Below are positions 9,389 through 41,829 of a stretch of 46,467 bases of DNA, one piece after another (position 1 is the first letter of the stretch; each line of letters opens with the position of its first letter). The position numbers and the translations under genes are program-made. Under the pieces are notes generated by a model. The model saw nothing but the letters and a program-made list of their open reading frames with translations. It had not been told where the DNA came from and made no database searches. This stretch comes from an uncultured Aureimonas sp. (GTDB taxonomy: Bacteria > Pseudomonadota > Alphaproteobacteria > Rhizobiales > Rhizobiaceae). Where the stretch lies: the NCBI RefSeq assembly GCF_913775355.1, contig NZ_CAJYIU010000047.1, forward strand, positions 1 through 46,467, given 5' to 3'.

Positions 9389-10282
9389 ATGTCCGAGCTG
9401 CCGCATCACGGCCGATACGATTATTCGCCCATCGTCCGGCGGCCGGACTATTCCTGGCCGGAAGGGCGGCGGCTCGCCATCTATTTCGGCGTCAATCACG
9501 AGGTCTTCGGGTTCGGCGACGGGTTGGGCGCCAAGCTCGCGCCGTCCCAGTCCGAGCCCGACGTCATGAACTTCGCCTGGCGCGACTACGGCAACCGCGT
9601 CGGCGCCTGGCGCTTCATGGAGATGTTCGACCGGCTGGAGCTGTCGACGACGGCGCTCGTCAACAGCGCGGCGATCGAGCGGTGTCCGGGACTGGTGGAA
9701 GCCTGCCGCGACCGGGGCGACGAGATCGCCGCGCACGGCCGGACCAACGCCGAGGCGCAAGGTCAGTTGAGCGAGGACGAGGAGCGGTCGATGATCGCGC
9801 GCACGCTCGACGACTTCGGCAGGATCGGCGTCCGGCCGCAGGGCTGGCTCGGGCCCTGGATCTCCGAAAGCCACCACACGCCCGACCTCCTCGAGGAAGC
9901 GGGCTTCACCTATGTCCTCGACTGGGCGCACGACGATCAGCCGATCCGGCTCGAGACGCGCAGCGGGGCGGGGATCCTGTCGATCCCCTACGCGCAGGAG
10001 ATCAACGACATCCCGTCCATCGTCTCGCGCCATCAGGAAGCGGCGACGTTCGCGGCGATGATCGAGGACGCGGTCGACCAGCTTCTCGGCGAATGCGAGC
10101 GCCGCCCCCTCGTTCTCGGGATCGCGCTGCACCCCTACATCATGGGGCAGGCCCACCGCGCCCTTCACCTCGATCGAGTCCTGACGCGCCTGCGGGAGCG
10201 GGACGACCCGCGCATCTGGTGGACCACCGCCGGGGCCGTGGCGGTGCACATGGCGGACGTGCGAAGCGAGCCCGGCCGCTGA
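9389..10282 (+). CDS. PuuE/allantoinase-like polysaccharide deacetylase-family protein
   Basis: 297 residues from ATG 9389 (MSELPHHG), chosen because residues read from the upstream ATG at 9323 look non-coding and a GAGG sequence precedes 9389. It has the NodB-homology (carbohydrate esterase 4) fold in the PuuE subfamily, with YSPIVRRPDYSWPEGRRLAIY near the N-terminus. The subfamily's replacement of the usual HxxxH metal motif is seen as DEIAAHGRTN. GWLGPWISES and the late LGIALHPYIMGQAHR also fit. PuuE relatives include metal-independent allantoinases and amide hydrolases, so hydrolysis of a C-N bond is likely but the substrate is open. No purine-degradation genes are adjacent. It lies next to the RiPP precursor gene but probably belongs to a separate unit. 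Confidence 0.85.
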   Translation: MSELPHHGRYDYSPIVRRPDYSWPEGRRLAIYFGVNHEVFGFGDGLGAKLAPSQSEPDVMNFAWRDYGNRVGAWRFMEMFDRLELSTTALVNSAAIERCPGLVEACRDRGDEIAAHGRTNAEAQGQLSEDEERSMIARTLDDFGRIGVRPQGWLGPWISESHHTPDLLEEAGFTYVLDWAHDDQPIRLETRSGAGILSIPYAQEINDIPSIVSRHQEAATFAAMIEDAVDQLLGECERRPLVLGIALHPYIMGQAHRALHLDRVLTRLRERDDPRIWWTTAGAVAVHMADVRSEPGR

Positions 10283-10467
10283 CGCGACGCTTCGGGAACG
10301 CGTTTCCCGCGATCCGGCCGCAGCGGTCGCGCGTCCGACGAGTTCTTCCTCTGACGATCCGCGGAGAACGATTGATGAGGCGGATCAATCCCGCTTGTCG
10401 CATGCTGTCGAGCGGAGCGCCGGCGATTCTGTGGAACCGGCGTCTAGCCCGGACCCAGCGCTTCCGC

Positions 10468-10743
10468 TCAGGTCGGGCCACCGCCGGTGTCGCTTTGACC
10501 AGAAGGATATTGCGGGCAACTACCGCCGGCCGACACGAGGTCGAGATCCTCGTCCGAGAGTTCGCCCGACTCGTAGTCTTCGAAGGCCGCCATCGCGTCC
10601 TCGGGCGAGAAGATGTAGCCGTGTTCGCGGCCGAGACGGCTGACAGCCTCCGCGCTGTCGAGAGCTGCGGATCGGAACTTCTCGCACAGGGACGGGTCGC
10701 TGTCCGCCTGAACGAAAAACGCCTTGACCGTTTCGATGCTCAT
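10468..10743 (-). CDS. Nif11/NHLP-type RiPP precursor peptide
   Basis: A 91-residue peptide starting MSIETVKAFF. Residues 1-72 match the Nif11-type leader consensus: Ser-x-Glu start, an amphipathic helix ending DPSLCEKF, then HGYIFSPEDA and the acidic ELSDEDLDLV. They end in the double-glycine protease site (SAGG, Gly73-Gly74). The predicted core is 17 residues, SCPQYPSGQSDTGGGPT, with one Cys, three Ser, two Thr, one Tyr, one Asp and no Lys or Arg. The ATG at 10743 follows GGTGAG at good spacing; an upstream in-frame ATG at 10761 (MPGENS) is less likely. It is divergent from a GNAT, a C39-ABC exporter and an HlyD stub, which together form a RiPP locus. The mature product and modification are unknown. 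Confidence 0.87.
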   Translation of the reverse strand: MSIETVKAFFVQADSDPSLCEKFRSAALDSAEAVSRLGREHGYIFSPEDAMAAFEDYESGELSDEDLDLVSAGGSCPQYPSGQSDTGGGPT

Positions 10744-11119
10744 GCTGTTCTCACCCGGCAAGCACGACGTGGATGGGGCCGATGTCGTCGCGAACCACGC
10801 GGCCCGACAGACACGCCGGGCCGAATTCGGTCGTGGCGAACCGATCCCGAAGCTTCAGACGCCACGCGCCCACTCGCGCGTCCAGCCGTTCGATCCGTCC
10901 TGGGACGTTTTGACGGTCATCCGGGACGAAATCGGCGGCTCCCTCGGGCGAGATGGCTTGGCGGGCAACCTTCGCGATGGAAGGATGGACAGGGATGTCT
11001 GCGTCACGCGGCAGGCAGGGCAGAGGTCCGTGGGGGCGGTTGGTCGTGGTGATGCCGCCTCGACCGGAGATCGCCGCGTGGAAGGGTGCCCCCCCGAAGC
11101 GCAGAACGGGAATGCGGTC
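10744..11119. promoter_or_regulatory. divergent intergenic region of the RiPP locus
   Basis: This 376-base stretch separates the precursor (minus) from the GNAT start (plus) and must hold both promoters. I could not pick convincing -35/-10 boxes. It contains a minus-strand open frame, 10751-11122 (123 codons), with codon use similar to real genes here and a stop 7 nt before the precursor ATG. That frame has no ATG, GTG or TTG near its 5' end, so it may be a gene remnant or chance. Confidence 0.4.
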
Positions 11120-12049
11120 GTGTCAATCTCGGTCGAATGTCTCTCGAAGCCGGATCCCGGTTTCGCCGCCTTCACCTATCCGCGCCTCGCAAAGCTCGTC
11201 GCCGAGCCGCGCCCCTCGATGCTGGCAATCGGCGCCTTCGATGGCGACAGTCCGGCGGGACTGGCTCTCGGAGATTGTGGTCCGGGCGATGGTCGTCTTC
11301 TCTCGCTGATGGTCGACCGGCGATGCCGCGGAATGGGGATCGCCACGCAGCTCATGCGAGCCTTCGCGTCGGCGGCGGGCGAGCGCGGCATTCGACGGAT
11401 CGAAACGCACTACCCGGACCATCTGGCCTCGCGCCCCGCGCTCGAGGCGGCGCTGTCGAACGCCGGTTGGAGCGAGCCGAACCTCGGAAATGTGCAGATC
11501 GTGGGTCTTGCCGGCGCGATGTCCGATGTGGGAGGGCGATGGCCGGGCGTGCGACGCCTTCTGGAACGTCCCGAGCCCTATGCCTTCACACCCTGGAGCG
11601 AGAGAACCGCGCGGGACGAAGCCGCGGTCGAGCGATGTCTGGGGGAGGGCTCCGACATCCGGCCGCCCGACCCGCTCACCTGGCGCACGAGCTTCGATCT
11701 CGATCTCAGCTTCGTCCTGCGTCGCGGCGGCGACCTGGTCGGCTGGCTGATCGGCCAGCGCGCCGAGACCGGTTTCGGACCTGAAACCACGAGCGACGAG
11801 GCCGTCTCGGTCCACTATCCCGCCGCCTACTGTGCCGAGGCGCACAGCCGGAGCGGCATCCTGATCGCGGGATACCACCAGGCCTTCTCGCGGCAGGCGG
11901 AACTCTACGGCCCGCGTTCGCGCGCGAGCTACAGAACCCATCCGGGTGCCCGCGCGATGCTCGCGCTCACCATGCGCCGCTTCGCGCCGCTGGCCCTGCG
12001 GGTGGACCGTGTCTTCACCAGCCGCCTCCATCTGGCGGGGGCGGATTGA
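11120..12049 (+). CDS. two-domain GNAT-like acyltransferase, candidate RiPP maturase
   Basis: About 309 residues from a GTG at 11120. The frame is open further upstream to an ATG at 10724, but that stretch overlaps the precursor start and reads like non-coding translation. The N-terminal half has the acyl-CoA-binding GNAT signature: LLSLMVDRRCRGMGIATQLM with Arg-x-x-Gly-x-Gly near residues 68-73. The C-terminal half (about 150-309) looks like a second, more divergent GNAT-like domain with SFVLRRGGDLVGWLIG. Its TGA overlaps the exporter's TTG start, so the two are translationally coupled. GNAT-type maturases that fatty-acylate Lys or Orn of Nif11/NHLP-leader peptides are known from selidamide RiPPs; this gene is the only tailoring candidate here. 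That role is inferred from context. Confidence 0.75.
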   Translation: MSISVECLSKPDPGFAAFTYPRLAKLVAEPRPSMLAIGAFDGDSPAGLALGDCGPGDGRLLSLMVDRRCRGMGIATQLMRAFASAAGERGIRRIETHYPDHLASRPALEAALSNAGWSEPNLGNVQIVGLAGAMSDVGGRWPGVRRLLERPEPYAFTPWSERTARDEAAVERCLGEGSDIRPPDPLTWRTSFDLDLSFVLRRGGDLVGWLIGQRAETGFGPETTSDEAVSVHYPAAYCAEAHSRSGILIAGYHQAFSRQAELYGPRSRASYRTHPGARAMLALTMRRFAPLALRVDRVFTSRLHLAGAD

Positions 12050-15000
12050 GCGCTCGCGCCCCGCATCGGATCGCGAATCTGGCCGCACGGTTCCGGCGCT
12101 TCGTTCCGCCGCGGGTTCCCCGCACGCCGCTGCGTGCGCAGTTCCAGACGACGGAATGCGGGATCGGCGTGATGCGCACGATGCTCGCGCATTTCGGGCG
12201 TTCGGTTTCGGCGCGGGAGCTCCGCGCCGCGATGGGCATCTCGCGCGATTGCCTGTCGGCGACCGACCTGAAGCGCGCGGCGGCAGCCTACGGGCTCGAA
12301 TGCCGCGCGATCCGCGCCGAGCCGGGCGCGCTTTCCAGCCGGCGTCTCCCGCTCGTCGCGCATCTCAACTTCATCCATTTCGTCGTCGTCGAAGCGGTCG
12401 GGCCCGAACGGGTGCGCATCAACTGCCCGGCGGGCGGCCGGATCGAACTGACGCGGGCGCATTTCGACCAGAGCTTCACCGGCATCGCGCTCGAGATGAC
12501 GCCTGGCCCGGACTTTCGTCCCGACGACCGGACACGCGCCGGTGCCGCGGAGATCGCGTGGTGGCGTTGGCGGCTTCGACCCGCGCTCGGGCCGCTCGCC
12601 CTCGGCGTCGCGGCGGCGGGGGCACGAGGGGCGGTGACGGTCGGGCTGGCGGTGCTTCTTGCCGACGGGGCTCGTTCCGTCGTCCCGATCGCAGCCGCGA
12701 CCGGGCTCGTCGCGCTCCTCGGCCTCGTGTCGGCCCGAGCCTTCGCTCGCGCCGGGCGCGGTGTCTCGCATCGCCTGCGTCTCGATCTCGCCGCGCGGCT
12801 TCCGGACCTGCCGGGTGCGTTCCACGCCTATCGCTTGCCGGAGGTCCTCGTTGCACTGTTCGAGGCGGTCCGCGACTGCGGTATCCGGCTGGAGGCCCGC
12901 GTCGCCCCGGCGCTCGCAGCCGTCCTCGAATGTCTGGTGATCCTGGCCGGCGCGGCGGTTCTTGCGCCACCTGCCGGCGCGGCTCTCGTCCTCGTCTTCG
13001 CGCTCTGGTGTCTCCTCGTCGCGGTCGCGAGCCTCCACCGCCGACGCCTAGAACGGGCGACCGGTGGCGGGCGGGCGGACACCGTCGAAGCCGGGCTTGC
13101 CGCGATCGAGCGACCGGCGGCCCATCGCATCGGCTCCGCGGGCGACGCCTTCCGCCACGAATGGATCGGGCGCCTCGCCCTCCGGCGACTGACAGAGCTG
13201 CGGATCGCCCGAGCCCCCGCCTGTCTGGCCGCAGCGCCCATCGCGCTGACCCTTGCCGGGCTCGCGGGCACGGCTCTGACCGCTCCTGCCGAGGCGGGCG
13301 CGCTGGGCGGCCTCCTCCTTCTCACCGGTGCCCTCGGACTGGCGGCGGCTCCCCTCGCTGGACTGCGCGGCGTTCTTGGCGACATGCGACGCTGTGGCCA
13401 GCACGCCGCGGACGTCCTCGACGAGCCGGTCGAGCCAGCGCCCGAACGGCCGATCGCGCCCACCGGCACCGGTCTCGACGTGCGGGGCGTCGGCTTCCGC
13501 TTCAATCCGAAGGGGCCGCCGGTCGTCGACCGCCTGAGCTTTCGCGTGCGGCCCGGCGAACAGGTCGGGCTCTGCGGGCCTTCGGGCGGCGGCAAGTCGA
13601 CCCTCGTCGGGATCGCGCTCGGCCTTCTCTCGCCGGAAGCCGGTGACGTTCTCTTCGGCGGCGTGCCGATCGGGCGGGTGCCGCGGGACGTGCGCGCCCG
13701 CCGCCTCGCTCTTGTCGATCGCGCGCCGCTGGTCTTCGAGGGCACCGTCCGGGAGAACCTCGTCCTCGACGATTCCGCGGTTTCGGACGCCGACCTCTGG
13801 AGCGCGATCCGGGACGCTGGTTTCGACACCGTCCTCGCCGCGCGGGCTGGCGGCCTTGACGCCCCGGTTCAGGCGTTCGGGCGCAAGTTCTCCGGCGGCG
13901 AACTCCGGCGCATGGGGATCGCGCGGTCGCTGGCCCGCAACCCGTCGCTCCTCGTCCTCGACGATGTCGTGGACGATCTCGATCTTGCGACCGAGATGCG
14001 CATCCGCGCGGCGCTTCGGCGTCGCGGCTGCGCCCTCCTTCTCGTCACCCACCGCGCGGCCTCCCTCCGGGCCGGCGACCGGATCGTTCGCATCGAGGGC
14101 CGTCGGGCGCCCCCTGTATCGACCGCCGGCTTCTCCGCCCATGGTCCCTCGCCCGCACCCGAAGGCCGGATCGCATCGGCGGCCGAGCCTTCGGTCGCGG
14201 CGCTGCTCGACGCGGTTGCCCACGAGTTCGGCATGGAGCTGGCTGTAGGCCGGTTCGACCTGGACGACGGAAACGACCGCCACGCGCTTGTCGGCGAAGG
14301 AGCTCGTCGGCGCGGCCTGCGCGCCCGCCCGGTGCGCCTCGGAGCGACGCTTCTCGATGGCGTCGAGTTCGGCCCGCTTCTCGCCTTCCGCCGCGACGGC
14401 ACGCCGCTTCTCCTGCGCCTGCGGGACGGCGCGATGCGATGGAGCGAGGCCGGGCCCGGCGGGGCGGCGGGGCTTTTCGATGCCGCGAGCCTCGCCGACC
14501 TCGACGAGGACGCCTTCGAGCTTTCGCGCGCCGCGTCCCCGCCCGCGACCTCGATCCGCGGCTGGCGAACGGACCTTCTCGTCGGCCGGACGGGCGCGAT
14601 CGGGGCGCTGGCGCTCCTGTCCGCAGCGCGCGCTGCGGCCCTCGCGGGCGTGCCGATCCTTGCGGCAACGGGCGGACTGGTTTCGGCAGGTCTCGCGCTG
14701 GCCGCCGCCGGTTGCTTCTCGGTCCAGGCGCTCGATGCCCGCGACCGGCTGTCTGCCGACCTGGAGCGGGCCGAGGCCGAGGCGACCGTGGCGCTGCTTC
14801 AAGACCTTCCCGGCGACGTCGGGCGCGAGCGCCGCCCCGCCGATCTCGTGCTCGGCCTTCACGGCCTCGGCGACGGGCGGAAGCGAATCCAGGCTGCGGT
14901 GGCGAGCGGCATGCCCGCCGCGATCCTGGCCGCGGCATCCCTTGCCGCGCTCGCCGGGCTGAAGGGCGTTGCGGTCTTCGTGCCGGCGGGGGCCCTCGCG

Positions 15001-16173
15001 CTCCTCATGCTCGGACCGCATCTTGCCGCCGTCGCGGCGGCGCGCGCGTTCGAGCGACCGCGGCTGGAGGCCGGGCGCGCGATGCGCCGCCGCCTGATCG
15101 TCCTTCTGTCGGGCCTGGCGCCCTTGCGTCTTCTCGCCGCCGATCGTGCGATGACGGCGCGCTGGGCCGGGGAGGATGCGGCGTTCGAGGCCGTCGAGCG
15201 CCGCTTCGCGCGGCGTCGCGATGCGGCTCTGGCCGTCGCGCCGGGTCTCGCCCTCGGGCTCGTCGCGATGCTCTGTGCCGGGTCGAGCGGTTCCGCCGAC
15301 ATTCTGGCTGCGGGGTGGCTCGGCTGGCTCCTCGCCTTCTCGGTTTCGAGCCTCGGCGGCTCGCTGGCCGACACCGTCGGCGGGCGTCTTCGGGGCCGCG
15401 CTGCCGACGCGCTCCTTGCCGCGCCGCGCGAGGCCGGGAGCTGGGCGGCTTCGAGCGGTGGGGCGCGGCTGCGCTGCACCGCCGTCGGCTACCGCTATCC
15501 CGGTTCCTCGGCGCTCGTCCTGTCGGGTCTCGACCTTGCGATCGACCCGACCCGCGTCACGGTGCTGACGGGGCCGTCGGGCGGAGGCAAGTCGACGCTG
15601 CTGCAGCTTCTTCTCGGCCTCGCCCGCCCGAGCGAGGGGCGGATCGAGCTCGACGGGCGACGGCTCGACGAGATCGACCTCGCATCGTGGCGTCGGGGCA
15701 TGGCCGCCGTGTTCCAGGGCGACCGCCTCGACGTCACCTCCACCATCCGCGGACACCTGCGCGGCTCCGGCGGCCACGATCTCGCGGCGATGTGGGAGGC
15801 GCTCGAACTCGTCGATCTCGCGGGCGAGGTGGCGGCCATGCCGATGGGGATCCAGACCATCGTCGGCCCCGACACCCTTTCGTCCGGGCAGCAGCAGCGT
15901 CTCCTGATCGCCCGCGCGCTGATCGGCCGGCCGCGCCTCCTCGTCCTCGACGAGGGCACCAACGCCGTTCCCGACCTGCTTCAGGCGCGGCTCTTGCAGC
16001 GGCTGCGGGCGAGGGGGATCGGCTGCCTCACGGTCACCCACCGGGAAACCCTGGTGTCGGCGGCCGACGCGGTCCACTTCATCGACGGAACCTGCCGCTT
16101 CTCCGGGACGCCGGCCGAGTTCCTGCGCCGATCGGACCTCGTCGCCGGTATCGCCGAGGAGGAGACGGCATGA
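12046..16173 (+). CDS. fused C39 peptidase / double ABC exporter of the NHLM RiPP type
   Basis: A 1375-residue inner-membrane protein with five regions. (1) A C39 leader peptidase, residues 1-160, with Gln32, catalytic Cys38 (TTECGIG) and His111; the third catalytic position, normally Asp in an NDPA motif, is Cys127 (INCPAGG). (2) Transmembrane domain 1, about 175-430. (3) ATPase 1 with Walker A GPSGGGKST near 511 and signature FSGGELRRM, but Arg for the Q-loop Gln and Asp for the Walker B Glu (LVLDDVVDD). (4) A linker matching the N-terminus of the second NHLM transporter (GVEFGPLLAFRRDG) and transmembrane domain 2. (5) A canonical ATPase 2 (Walker A near 1175, LSSGQQQRL, LLVLDEGT). NHLM systems normally encode these halves separately. 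It should cleave at the GG site and export the peptide. The TTG start overlaps the GNAT stop. Confidence 0.92.
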   Translation: MSARAPHRIANLAARFRRFVPPRVPRTPLRAQFQTTECGIGVMRTMLAHFGRSVSARELRAAMGISRDCLSATDLKRAAAAYGLECRAIRAEPGALSSRRLPLVAHLNFIHFVVVEAVGPERVRINCPAGGRIELTRAHFDQSFTGIALEMTPGPDFRPDDRTRAGAAEIAWWRWRLRPALGPLALGVAAAGARGAVTVGLAVLLADGARSVVPIAAATGLVALLGLVSARAFARAGRGVSHRLRLDLAARLPDLPGAFHAYRLPEVLVALFEAVRDCGIRLEARVAPALAAVLECLVILAGAAVLAPPAGAALVLVFALWCLLVAVASLHRRRLERATGGGRADTVEAGLAAIERPAAHRIGSAGDAFRHEWIGRLALRRLTELRIARAPACLAAAPIALTLAGLAGTALTAPAEAGALGGLLLLTGALGLAAAPLAGLRGVLGDMRRCGQHAADVLDEPVEPAPERPIAPTGTGLDVRGVGFRFNPKGPPVVDRLSFRVRPGEQVGLCGPSGGGKSTLVGIALGLLSPEAGDVLFGGVPIGRVPRDVRARRLALVDRAPLVFEGTVRENLVLDDSAVSDADLWSAIRDAGFDTVLAARAGGLDAPVQAFGRKFSGGELRRMGIARSLARNPSLLVLDDVVDDLDLATEMRIRAALRRRGCALLLVTHRAASLRAGDRIVRIEGRRAPPVSTAGFSAHGPSPAPEGRIASAAEPSVAALLDAVAHEFGMELAVGRFDLDDGNDRHALVGEGARRRGLRARPVRLGATLLDGVEFGPLLAFRRDGTPLLLRLRDGAMRWSEAGPGGAAGLFDAASLADLDEDAFELSRAASPPATSIRGWRTDLLVGRTGAIGALALLSAARAAALAGVPILAATGGLVSAGLALAAAGCFSVQALDARDRLSADLERAEAEATVALLQDLPGDVGRERRPADLVLGLHGLGDGRKRIQAAVASGMPAAILAAASLAALAGLKGVAVFVPAGALALLMLGPHLAAVAAARAFERPRLEAGRAMRRRLIVLLSGLAPLRLLAADRAMTARWAGEDAAFEAVERRFARRRDAALAVAPGLALGLVAMLCAGSSGSADILAAGWLGWLLAFSVSSLGGSLADTVGGRLRGRAADALLAAPREAGSWAASSGGARLRCTAVGYRYPGSSALVLSGLDLAIDPTRVTVLTGPSGGGKSTLLQLLLGLARPSEGRIELDGRRLDEIDLASWRRGMAAVFQGDRLDVTSTIRGHLRGSGGHDLAAMWEALELVDLAGEVAAMPMGIQTIVGPDTLSSGQQQRLLIARALIGRPRLLVLDEGTNAVPDLLQARLLQRLRARGIGCLTVTHRETLVSAADAVHFIDGTCRFSGTPAEFLRRSDLVAGIAEEETA

Positions 16174-16361
16174 GCGGGAGCCTGCACCCTTTCGGCTGGA
16201 AGCCGCCGCGCACGTCGCCCTTCCGCGCCGAGGCGATCCGGCATCTGGAGCGCCCGCTCGCGGCAAAGCCCCCGCTCCTGCGGCCGATGCGCCGGTGGCG
16301 CTGGGCCGGTATCGGCGTCGTGCTCCTCGGCGCGGCTGTGCTCCTGGCGGGGTATCCTTGA
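16170..16361 (+). CDS. 63-residue HlyD-adaptor stub (single-helix membrane protein)
   Basis: Starts at an ATG overlapping the exporter stop (ATGA), so it is coupled to the exporter. The 63 residues begin with a hydrophilic stretch containing [12 protein letters not shown], the short pattern found at the N-terminus of NHLM-type HlyD membrane fusion proteins. One transmembrane helix ([18 protein letters not shown], about 45-62) follows and the protein then stops. The periplasmic coiled-coil and barrel domains of an adaptor are absent, and the following 120 bases do not continue them in any frame. Either the gene is the truncated remnant of an HlyD gene, or a minimal accessory subunit of the fused exporter has been retained. 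Confidence 0.7.
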
Positions 16362-16482
16362 ACGAGGCGGATGCGTGGGGCCGTCCATCGGGAAGACCGC
16401 GCAACGGAACCTTCATCCGGCTGTCATAAAACGGGATGTCGTGACCGTCGCCGACGATCGTCTCTGCGTGGATCCTGTGCCG

Positions 16483-41205: not shown

Positions 41206-41829
41206 TCAGGTCGCCCCACCCATCCAGAGGCACCAGAACGCCAGGAGCGACGCATCGTCGGACGCCATGGCGTGGCGGATGTTCGGCTCGTTGTAGAGCG
41301 TGCCGCCGATGCCGGGCTCGAACCAGCCGGATGACCCATGCTGGAAGCGGCCGGGCGAGAGGACGAGATAGACCTCTTCCGGGCCATGATCGTGGTCGGG
41401 ATAGCGCACGTTCGGGGCCAGAAGCGACACGCCGACGGATACGTCCCGCCGATCCTCCAGCCCGCCCGAGCCGAGAATGGTCGCGTTGGCGTGGCCGTCC
41501 GGCCAGTTGTCGCTGGAATGAGGGCCGCCGGACGCGCGCCGCGCCCAGCGAAGGTCCGGCTCGATCGCCCGGAAGCCTTCGGCAAGGTCCGCGAAGGGGG
41601 GCCGGGCCGTCCGCACCGCGGCGATCGCCGTCGGCAGGTGCTCGCACACCGGCAGGCGTTCGGGTGCCGTCGTTCCGCGGGGTGCGACCCTGTCGAGCGC
41701 CTGGAAGATGCGCCCGAGCGCGGCGTCGCTGTCCGGGCTCGTTCGTGCCGCCTCGAAGGCCTCGCGCAGGCGGTTCACGAAGGTCTGCAGCGCTGTGTCG
41801 CGCCGGGTCGTGGAGCGTTCCGTTTCCAT
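41206..41829 (-). CDS. cupin of the DMSP lyase family (DddQ/DddL-like)
   Basis: 207 residues. The C-terminal cupin barrel carries the metal ligand set expected of DMSP lyase cupins: His146 and His148 in YPDHDHG, Glu152, Tyr154, and His186 in EPNIRHAM. The GRFQHGSSGWFEPG and LLAFWCLW segments also match that family. Characterised members split dimethylsulfoniopropionate into acrylate and dimethyl sulfide; many homologues in soil bacteria have unproven substrates. It follows the ProC-like gene by 15 nt and the ProW genes, so it seems to belong to an operon importing a DMSP- or betaine-like compound. Family membership is likely; lyase activity is inference. Confidence 0.82.
   Translation of the reverse strand: METERSTTRRDTALQTFVNRLREAFEAARTSPDSDAALGRIFQALDRVAPRGTTAPERLPVCEHLPTAIAAVRTARPPFADLAEGFRAIEPDLRWARRASGGPHSSDNWPDGHANATILGSGGLEDRRDVSVGVSLLAPNVRYPDHDHGPEEVYLVLSPGRFQHGSSGWFEPGIGGTLYNEPNIRHAMASDDASLLAFWCLWMGGAT

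Follow-up and report, generated by a model that had tools for sequence, protein, structure and literature searches.

A candidate GNAT-dependent lipopeptide-type RiPP locus in Aureimonas with a lysine-free, single-cysteine core and a fused exporter

Introduction

The closest described systems are the selidamides and nostolysamides, in which a GNAT acyltransferase modifies the core of a ribosomally synthesized precursor. The available excerpts of PMC9505594 define selidamides, phaeornamide among them, by an acyl group on Lys or (hydroxy)ornithine. In the available excerpts of PMC13060382, NpuN (WP_012412981.1) is described as a tandem GNAT with a P-loop in its N-domain that uses acyl-CoA to acylate Lys1 of a precursor with a Nif11 leader. 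According to the same excerpts, GNATs related to NpuN are accompanied by Nif11 or NHLP precursors and mostly by an ABC transporter, and a lanthionine synthetase is not always present.

The DNA analyzed here, referred to as the window, is a stretch of 46,467 nucleotides from an uncultured Aureimonas sp. (contig NZ_CAJYIU010000047.1). It contains a short precursor gene that a sequence-only reading had assigned to a minimal, possibly new class of RiPP. A new class was too strong a claim, because loci that combine a GNAT, a Nif11 or NHLP precursor, and an exporter and lack a lanthionine synthetase are already in print (excerpts of PMC13060382) and many such loci were found in this analysis. The explanation that we consider moderately likely is a compact, selidamide-like, GNAT-dependent locus of the RiPP lipopeptide type in which the acyl acceptor is not Lys or Orn.

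Results and Discussion

A discrete 6.1-kb unit in Aureimonas

The precursor gene lies in a 6.1-kb unit that also contains genes for a GNAT and an exporter and an open reading frame (ORF) of 63 codons (Table 1). At the empty site in Aureimonas genome G009, the flanking deacetylase and chemoreceptor are 93% (residues 19-319) and 97% (residues 37-449) identical to those of the window, and the gap between the two genes is 144 bp as judged from the blastn ends. The deacetylase is also present in genomes G015 (87%) and G016 (84%), where the chemoreceptor is not within the available 1.5 kb, so the empty site is documented by G009 only. The set of genes was probably acquired. No repeat paired the two borders of the insertion among the families listed, which cover 20 of 23 direct-repeat families, and a scan for promoters and terminators found none.

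Table 1. Features of the locus, in window coordinates
Feature	Position	Strand	Remarks
RiPP precursor gene, 91 aa	10468..10743	-	Nif11 leader, residues 1-74, ending LVSAGG, then a 17-residue core
Core SCPQYPSGQSDTGGGPT	10471..10521	-	0 Lys, 0 Arg, one Cys (core residue 2)
Tandem-GNAT acyltransferase, 309 aa	11120..12049	+	GTG start placed where homology begins; PF00583, 40.2 bits
Single-chain exporter, 1375 aa, C39 peptidase-ABC1 fused to ABC2	12046..16173	+	TTG start overlaps GNAT stop
63-aa ORF with hydrophobic C-terminal stretch	16170..16361	+	ATGA overlap with exporter stop; membership in unit uncertain
Segment missing from Aureimonas genome G009	10283..16373		Flanking deacetylase and chemoreceptor genes adjacent there

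The GNAT is carried by 2 of 21 Aureimonas genomes, that of the window and G007. The G007 gene (G007:C67:5402-6259; loci L008 and L050) is an orphan: its surroundings are transposase-like ORFs, and neither a precursor nor an exporter was seen in the 14 kb covered.

The earlier observation that no LanM, radical SAM, YcaO, or nitrile hydratase gene is visible was borne out among the 26 window ORFs scanned with Pfam, which include the three of the locus itself and 21 of the 22 non-overlapping window ORFs picked. Genes for arginase, hydroxylase, and LanM are likewise absent from the 6.1-kb unit, which therefore lacks the LanM synthetase of a class II lanthipeptide locus. Elsewhere in the window, positions 41209 to 41829 (minus strand) encode a protein of the DMSP-lyase family (PF16867, 159.9 bits) near transport and P5C-reductase-like genes.

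Precursor and core peptide

The precursor exceeded the curated cut-offs of both profiles, with 41.8 bits against 32.3 for TIGR03798 (E 9.8e-11) and 47 bits against 23.8 for PF07862. These matches rule out a chance ORF. The translated ORF, which is on the minus strand, also agrees with the sequence-only reading in its 91 residues, its Nif11-type leader, the GG at residues 73-74, and the 17-residue core without Lys or Arg. The double-Gly junction, LVSAGG / SCPQYPSGQSDTGGGPT, is thus followed by a short core, and a Shine-Dalgarno-like GGGTGAG is found 5' of the ATG. That reading had left the type of leader between Nif11 and NHLP; the Nif11 profiles matched, but the NHLP leader profile did not match anywhere in the genome at E <= 1. 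Across the 4.2-Mb genome TIGR03798 gave three reported matches, of which the precursor alone was above the cut-off. The genome was therefore judged to have no second precursor, none being above the cut-off with either the TIGR03798 or the NHLP leader profile.

The absence of Lys and Arg from the window core says little alone, because by composition it is not improbable. With the residue frequencies of 11 window proteins (5,259 residues; Lys 2.3%, Arg 7.6%), a random 17-mer has no Lys with P 0.67 and neither Lys nor Arg with P 0.17; it has at least one Cys with P 0.13. The absence is notable only against the cores of other GNAT-linked loci.

The GNAT and its probable substrate

The precursor gene had been described as divergent from a C39-ABC exporter. 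The exporter is indeed linked, but the nearest divergent neighbor is the GNAT gene and the exporter gene comes second. With the Nif11 profile matches and a linked exporter, the conditions that had been set for refuting the sequence-only reading do not refute it. An AlphaFold2 model of the GNAT, built from 14 sequences, had a mean pLDDT of 87.4 and matched two-domain GNATs in the PDB over its full length, including the tandem GNATs 2wpx, VipF, and MAB_4324. Thus, a predicted tandem GNAT is encoded beside the precursor, as in selidamide loci, and the P-loop of its N-domain reads RGMGIA. A sequence search of the PDB with the GNAT gave three matches, the best with an E value of just 0.19, and a scan of genome contigs with the window GNAT alone as the query found no relatives.

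Residue 254 of the window GNAT is Gln, and the corresponding residue is His in 14 of the 15 members of the clade associated with Lys cores. This His was rejected as a diagnostic of a Lys acceptor because the E-type GNATs of L055b, L057, and L100, which likewise lack it, adjoin Lys-containing cores.

Homologues 26 to 38% identical to the window GNAT, most of them 31 to 38%, adjoin Nif11- or NHLP-type precursors in Pleomorphomonas, Rhizobium, Mesorhizobium, Shinella, Azospirillum, Telmatospirillum, Ensifer, and a Propionivibrio metagenome-assembled genome (MAG), and NHLM-type exporters are usual at these loci. Further GNAT-precursor loci were found in genomes G829, G842, G980, and G1033. This comparison leaves out weaker or partial matches in G049, G074, G468, G600, G747, and G785. 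By analogy with NpuN, the window GNAT probably acylates the core of the adjacent precursor. It is quite improbable, in our estimation, that the GNAT has a substrate other than the core, as a housekeeping or self-resistance acetyltransferase would, and that the peptide is exported unmodified. GNATs have many substrates, self-resistance roles are mentioned in the excerpts of PMC13060382, and no acyl adduct is known at the window locus. However, the same GNAT family recurs beside Nif11- or NHLP-type precursors, and the excerpts of PMC13060382 report that NpuN, also a tandem GNAT, acylates a core experimentally.

The family is sparse. It was detected in at least 7 of 385 genomes of the class at E 1e-8, four of the seven being short partial matches, and in at least 3 of 398 genomes of the phylum at E 1e-12. 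The window genome is counted in both tallies, which are lower bounds since the best 5 candidates per genome were scored. In the order to which G829 belongs, 4 of 43 genomes matched, two of them (G835 and G836) with distant GNATs beside which no precursor was detected.

A gene set as minimal as that of the window (GNAT, precursor, and C39-ABC/ABC exporter) is present at Azospirillum locus L056, by annotation, and at Telmatospirillum locus L049, where flanking ORFs were scanned. The Azospirillum precursor (26.5 bits) and one scanned Telmatospirillum precursor (23.4 bits) are below the NHLP cut-off of 50.9.

Several related loci have features of their own. Plasmid p1 of Shinella sp. H4-D48 (L055) has two GNATs, Nif11 and NHLP precursors, a radical SAM protein, an NHLM exporter, and a secretion protein. 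In genome G658, a GNAT-like stretch that contains a single in-frame TGA has a Nif11-type precursor nearby (L066:10647-10997, minus strand), the core of which starts KGHHHHHHHHGSTVTQ and includes a run of His and one Lys. In G1033, two Nif11-type precursors (L101:10000-10897) with cores of 36 to 39 residues ending DKFKxFFSGW are near a distant GNAT.

A fused exporter with an altered peptidase site

The exporter matched the NHLM_micro_ABC1 model, TIGR03796, over residues 26 to 684 (427.9 bits; equivalog cut-off 853.3) and the ABC2 model, TIGR03797, over residues 721 to 1369 (309 bits; equivalog cut-off 709.4). Pfam recognized PF03412 and two stretches of PF00005. The protein resembles the NHLM_micro_ABC1 and ABC2 exporters in its domain order and in matching nearly the whole of both models; it differs from them in being one chain and in scoring below both equivalog cut-offs.

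The fused C39-ABC1-ABC2 architecture is rare. A search with the C39 domain gave at least 49 matches in at least 39 of 385 genomes of the class; at most 9 candidates were scored per genome and both tallies are lower bounds. Among the matches listed, frames longer than 1,400 aa were present only in the window genome and G829, and three other C39 frames in the class search were 1,028 to 1,135 aa. Viral contigs scanned with the window C39 domain gave no match. The window genome has a second C39 exporter (G000:C205:8856-9284) in an open frame of 733 aa.

C39 leader peptidases have a Cys-His-Asp catalytic triad. The C39 domain of the window exporter retains the Cys and the His, and the position of the catalytic Asp is occupied by Cys (INCPAGG, positions 12418 to 12438). 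In all 18 of the other exporters aligned this position reads NDP or ADP, NDP in most. The Walker A and signature motifs of the ABC1 half are retained.

The 63-aa ORF that follows the exporter gene had no NCBIfam match. It was rejected as a truncated membrane fusion protein, since it did not match a profile of three N-termini.

Lysine and cysteine in the cores of GNAT-linked loci

Lysine was compared across 42 precursors: the window precursor, 8 from genomes G829 and G842, and 33 from 17 other GNAT loci. Three of the four L057 cores, all with Lys, were read by eye rather than split by script, and related entries, such as L044 and L046 or L053 and L054, are not independent. The set leaves out GNAT loci at which no precursor was detected (L050/L008, L095, and L096), L066 of G658, duplicates (L030-L034, of L045, L047, L051, L053, and L054), and the Nif11 peptides of L037-L043, where no GNAT of the window family was found. 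The C39 exporter gene is unfused at 12 of the 17 other loci, and no such gene was seen in the DNA retrieved for the remaining five.

At these non-fused loci, 32 of 33 cores contain Lys and 7 of 33 contain Cys. The sole Lys-free core there (L101:11042-11428) belongs to a locus whose two other cores have Lys. In contrast, all nine cores at the loci with fused exporters (window, G829, and G842) are Lys-free and have exactly one Cys. Arg is present in two of the nine, one in G829 and one in G842.

The G829 and G842 loci (L065 and L094) resemble the window locus in having a GNAT, a fused C39-ABC-ABC exporter (1482 and 1392 aa, respectively), and Lys-free single-Cys cores (8 of 8). They differ in having four precursors each, with cores of 8 to 12 residues after a junction of the AAA/AAG type, and in an extra, separate NHLM exporter with a membrane fusion protein. 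With TIGR03798, three of the eight leaders score above the cut-off (2 of 4 and 1 of 4). The flanking ORFs scanned, which included part of the small ORFs, encode AraC regulators and transport, response-regulator, and housekeeping proteins, and thus the GNAT is the sole maturase candidate seen at these two loci.

The exporter tree unites the three fused exporters with support of 90/93 (not starred), with the long branch and letter make-up of the window sequence flagged. The window C39 domain shares 45% and 49% identity with those of G829 and G842 (the L094 sequence starts inside the domain), versus 40% and 36% with those of L056 and L049. However, the window GNAT is not grouped with the G829 and G842 GNATs in the GNAT tree, and the window leader is closer to a leader of the Lys type (40 bits to L030) than to the G829 leaders (22 bits). 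Because neither the leader nor the GNAT tree joins the window to these loci, it is the exporter and the core that support a shared type. Independent lineages are few, since L065 and L094 are from one genus and both have the separate NHLM exporter.

One explanation for the Lys-free window core is decay of this copy, in which loss of the Lys acceptor or a frameshift in the core would have left an inserted locus that has stopped making an acylated peptide. We regard this as unlikely. It would fit the near universality of Lys in the cores of non-fused loci, the Cys in place of the catalytic Asp, and the scarcity of the GNAT in the genus, where the other copy, that of G007, has transposase-like ORFs as neighbors and neither a precursor nor an exporter close to it. 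The third-position GC content (GC3) of the window core is 0.53 versus 0.83 for the leader, and Lys is encoded when the core DNA is read in a shifted frame. However, GC3 is also low, 0.27 to 0.41, in some cores of the Lys type, and the shifted frame (ORF 10140-10481) extends well beyond a normal core length. Furthermore, all three genes are open throughout, including that of the 1375-aa exporter with its ABC1 Walker A and signature motifs, and the eight Lys-free cores of G829 and G842 indicate that such cores persist in a lineage. Decay stays a live rival because of the mismatch of the GNAT tree and leader, the chance-level absence of Lys, and the Asp-to-Cys replacement in the C39 domain.

Proposed pathway and acyl acceptor

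In the favored pathway, that of a GNAT-dependent lipopeptide-type product, the Nif11 leader would present the core to the cytosolic tandem GNAT, which would acylate the core with acyl-CoA (or acyl-ACP) as the donor. The fused exporter would then cut behind the double Gly to remove the leader and would export the product. It had been argued earlier that any acyl group must be at a site other than Lys or Orn, and the core, having neither Lys nor Arg, supports this.

The simplest acceptor would be the Cys thiol, because all nine cores at fused-exporter loci, that of the window and eight others, lack Lys and have exactly one Cys. If the GNAT does acylate the core, Cys is a tentative choice of acceptor to which we give somewhat less than an even chance. 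The new N-terminus, Ser, Thr, and Tyr are alternatives. It is rather doubtful that the acyl group is placed on the new alpha-amine (or a Ser, Thr, or Tyr side chain) and that the Cys is used otherwise, for example in a disulfide or for target binding. N-terminal acylation has precedent in microvionin, the goadvionins, and the lipoavitides (excerpts of PMC13060382), and every core position except Lys would be available. However, N-terminal acylation requires prior removal of the leader, and the assigned ORFs of the unit include a single protease, the exporter's C39 domain. As the exporter is expected to cut after the cytosolic step, the N-terminus is a less likely acceptor. An alpha-amine acceptor would also leave the one Cys in each of the nine fused-exporter cores unexplained.

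A broader possibility, which we consider speculative, is that a small RiPP lineage with a GNAT as its sole maturase and a fused peptidase-transporter switched from Lys or Orn to a conserved Cys thiol and makes S-acyl (thioester) lipopeptides. If Cys is the acceptor, the product would represent S-acyl RiPP chemistry, of which there is no report among the literature matches listed (open-licence papers). Nor was there a report among those matches of Lys-free cores at loci with a GNAT and a Nif11 or NHLP precursor. The nine Lys-free single-Cys cores at GNAT loci make the choice of acceptor in RiPP lipidation testable with two genes.

Comparison with known systems

The homologous Alphaproteobacterial loci with Lys-containing cores resemble the window locus in having a related GNAT by the precursor and, usually, an NHLM-type exporter, and those of Azospirillum and Telmatospirillum are as minimal as the window locus. 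They differ in the Lys of their cores and in their unfused C39 exporter genes.

Selidamides and nostolysamides, the products of loci with PhaN and NpuN, share with the window locus, as far as the excerpts describe them, a Nif11 or NHLP leader, a double-Gly site, a GNAT, and a peptidase-containing ABC exporter. By its published description in those excerpts, NpuN is also like the window GNAT in being a tandem GNAT with an N-domain P-loop. The acyl group of selidamides is on Lys or (hydroxy)ornithine (excerpts of PMC9505594), whereas the window core has neither Lys nor Arg, the precursor of Orn. The window unit further differs in the absence of LanM, arginase, and hydroxylase and in having ABC1 and ABC2 in one chain. 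What is new is narrower than a new class: a rare sub-type that combines a fused exporter with Lys-free, single-Cys cores.
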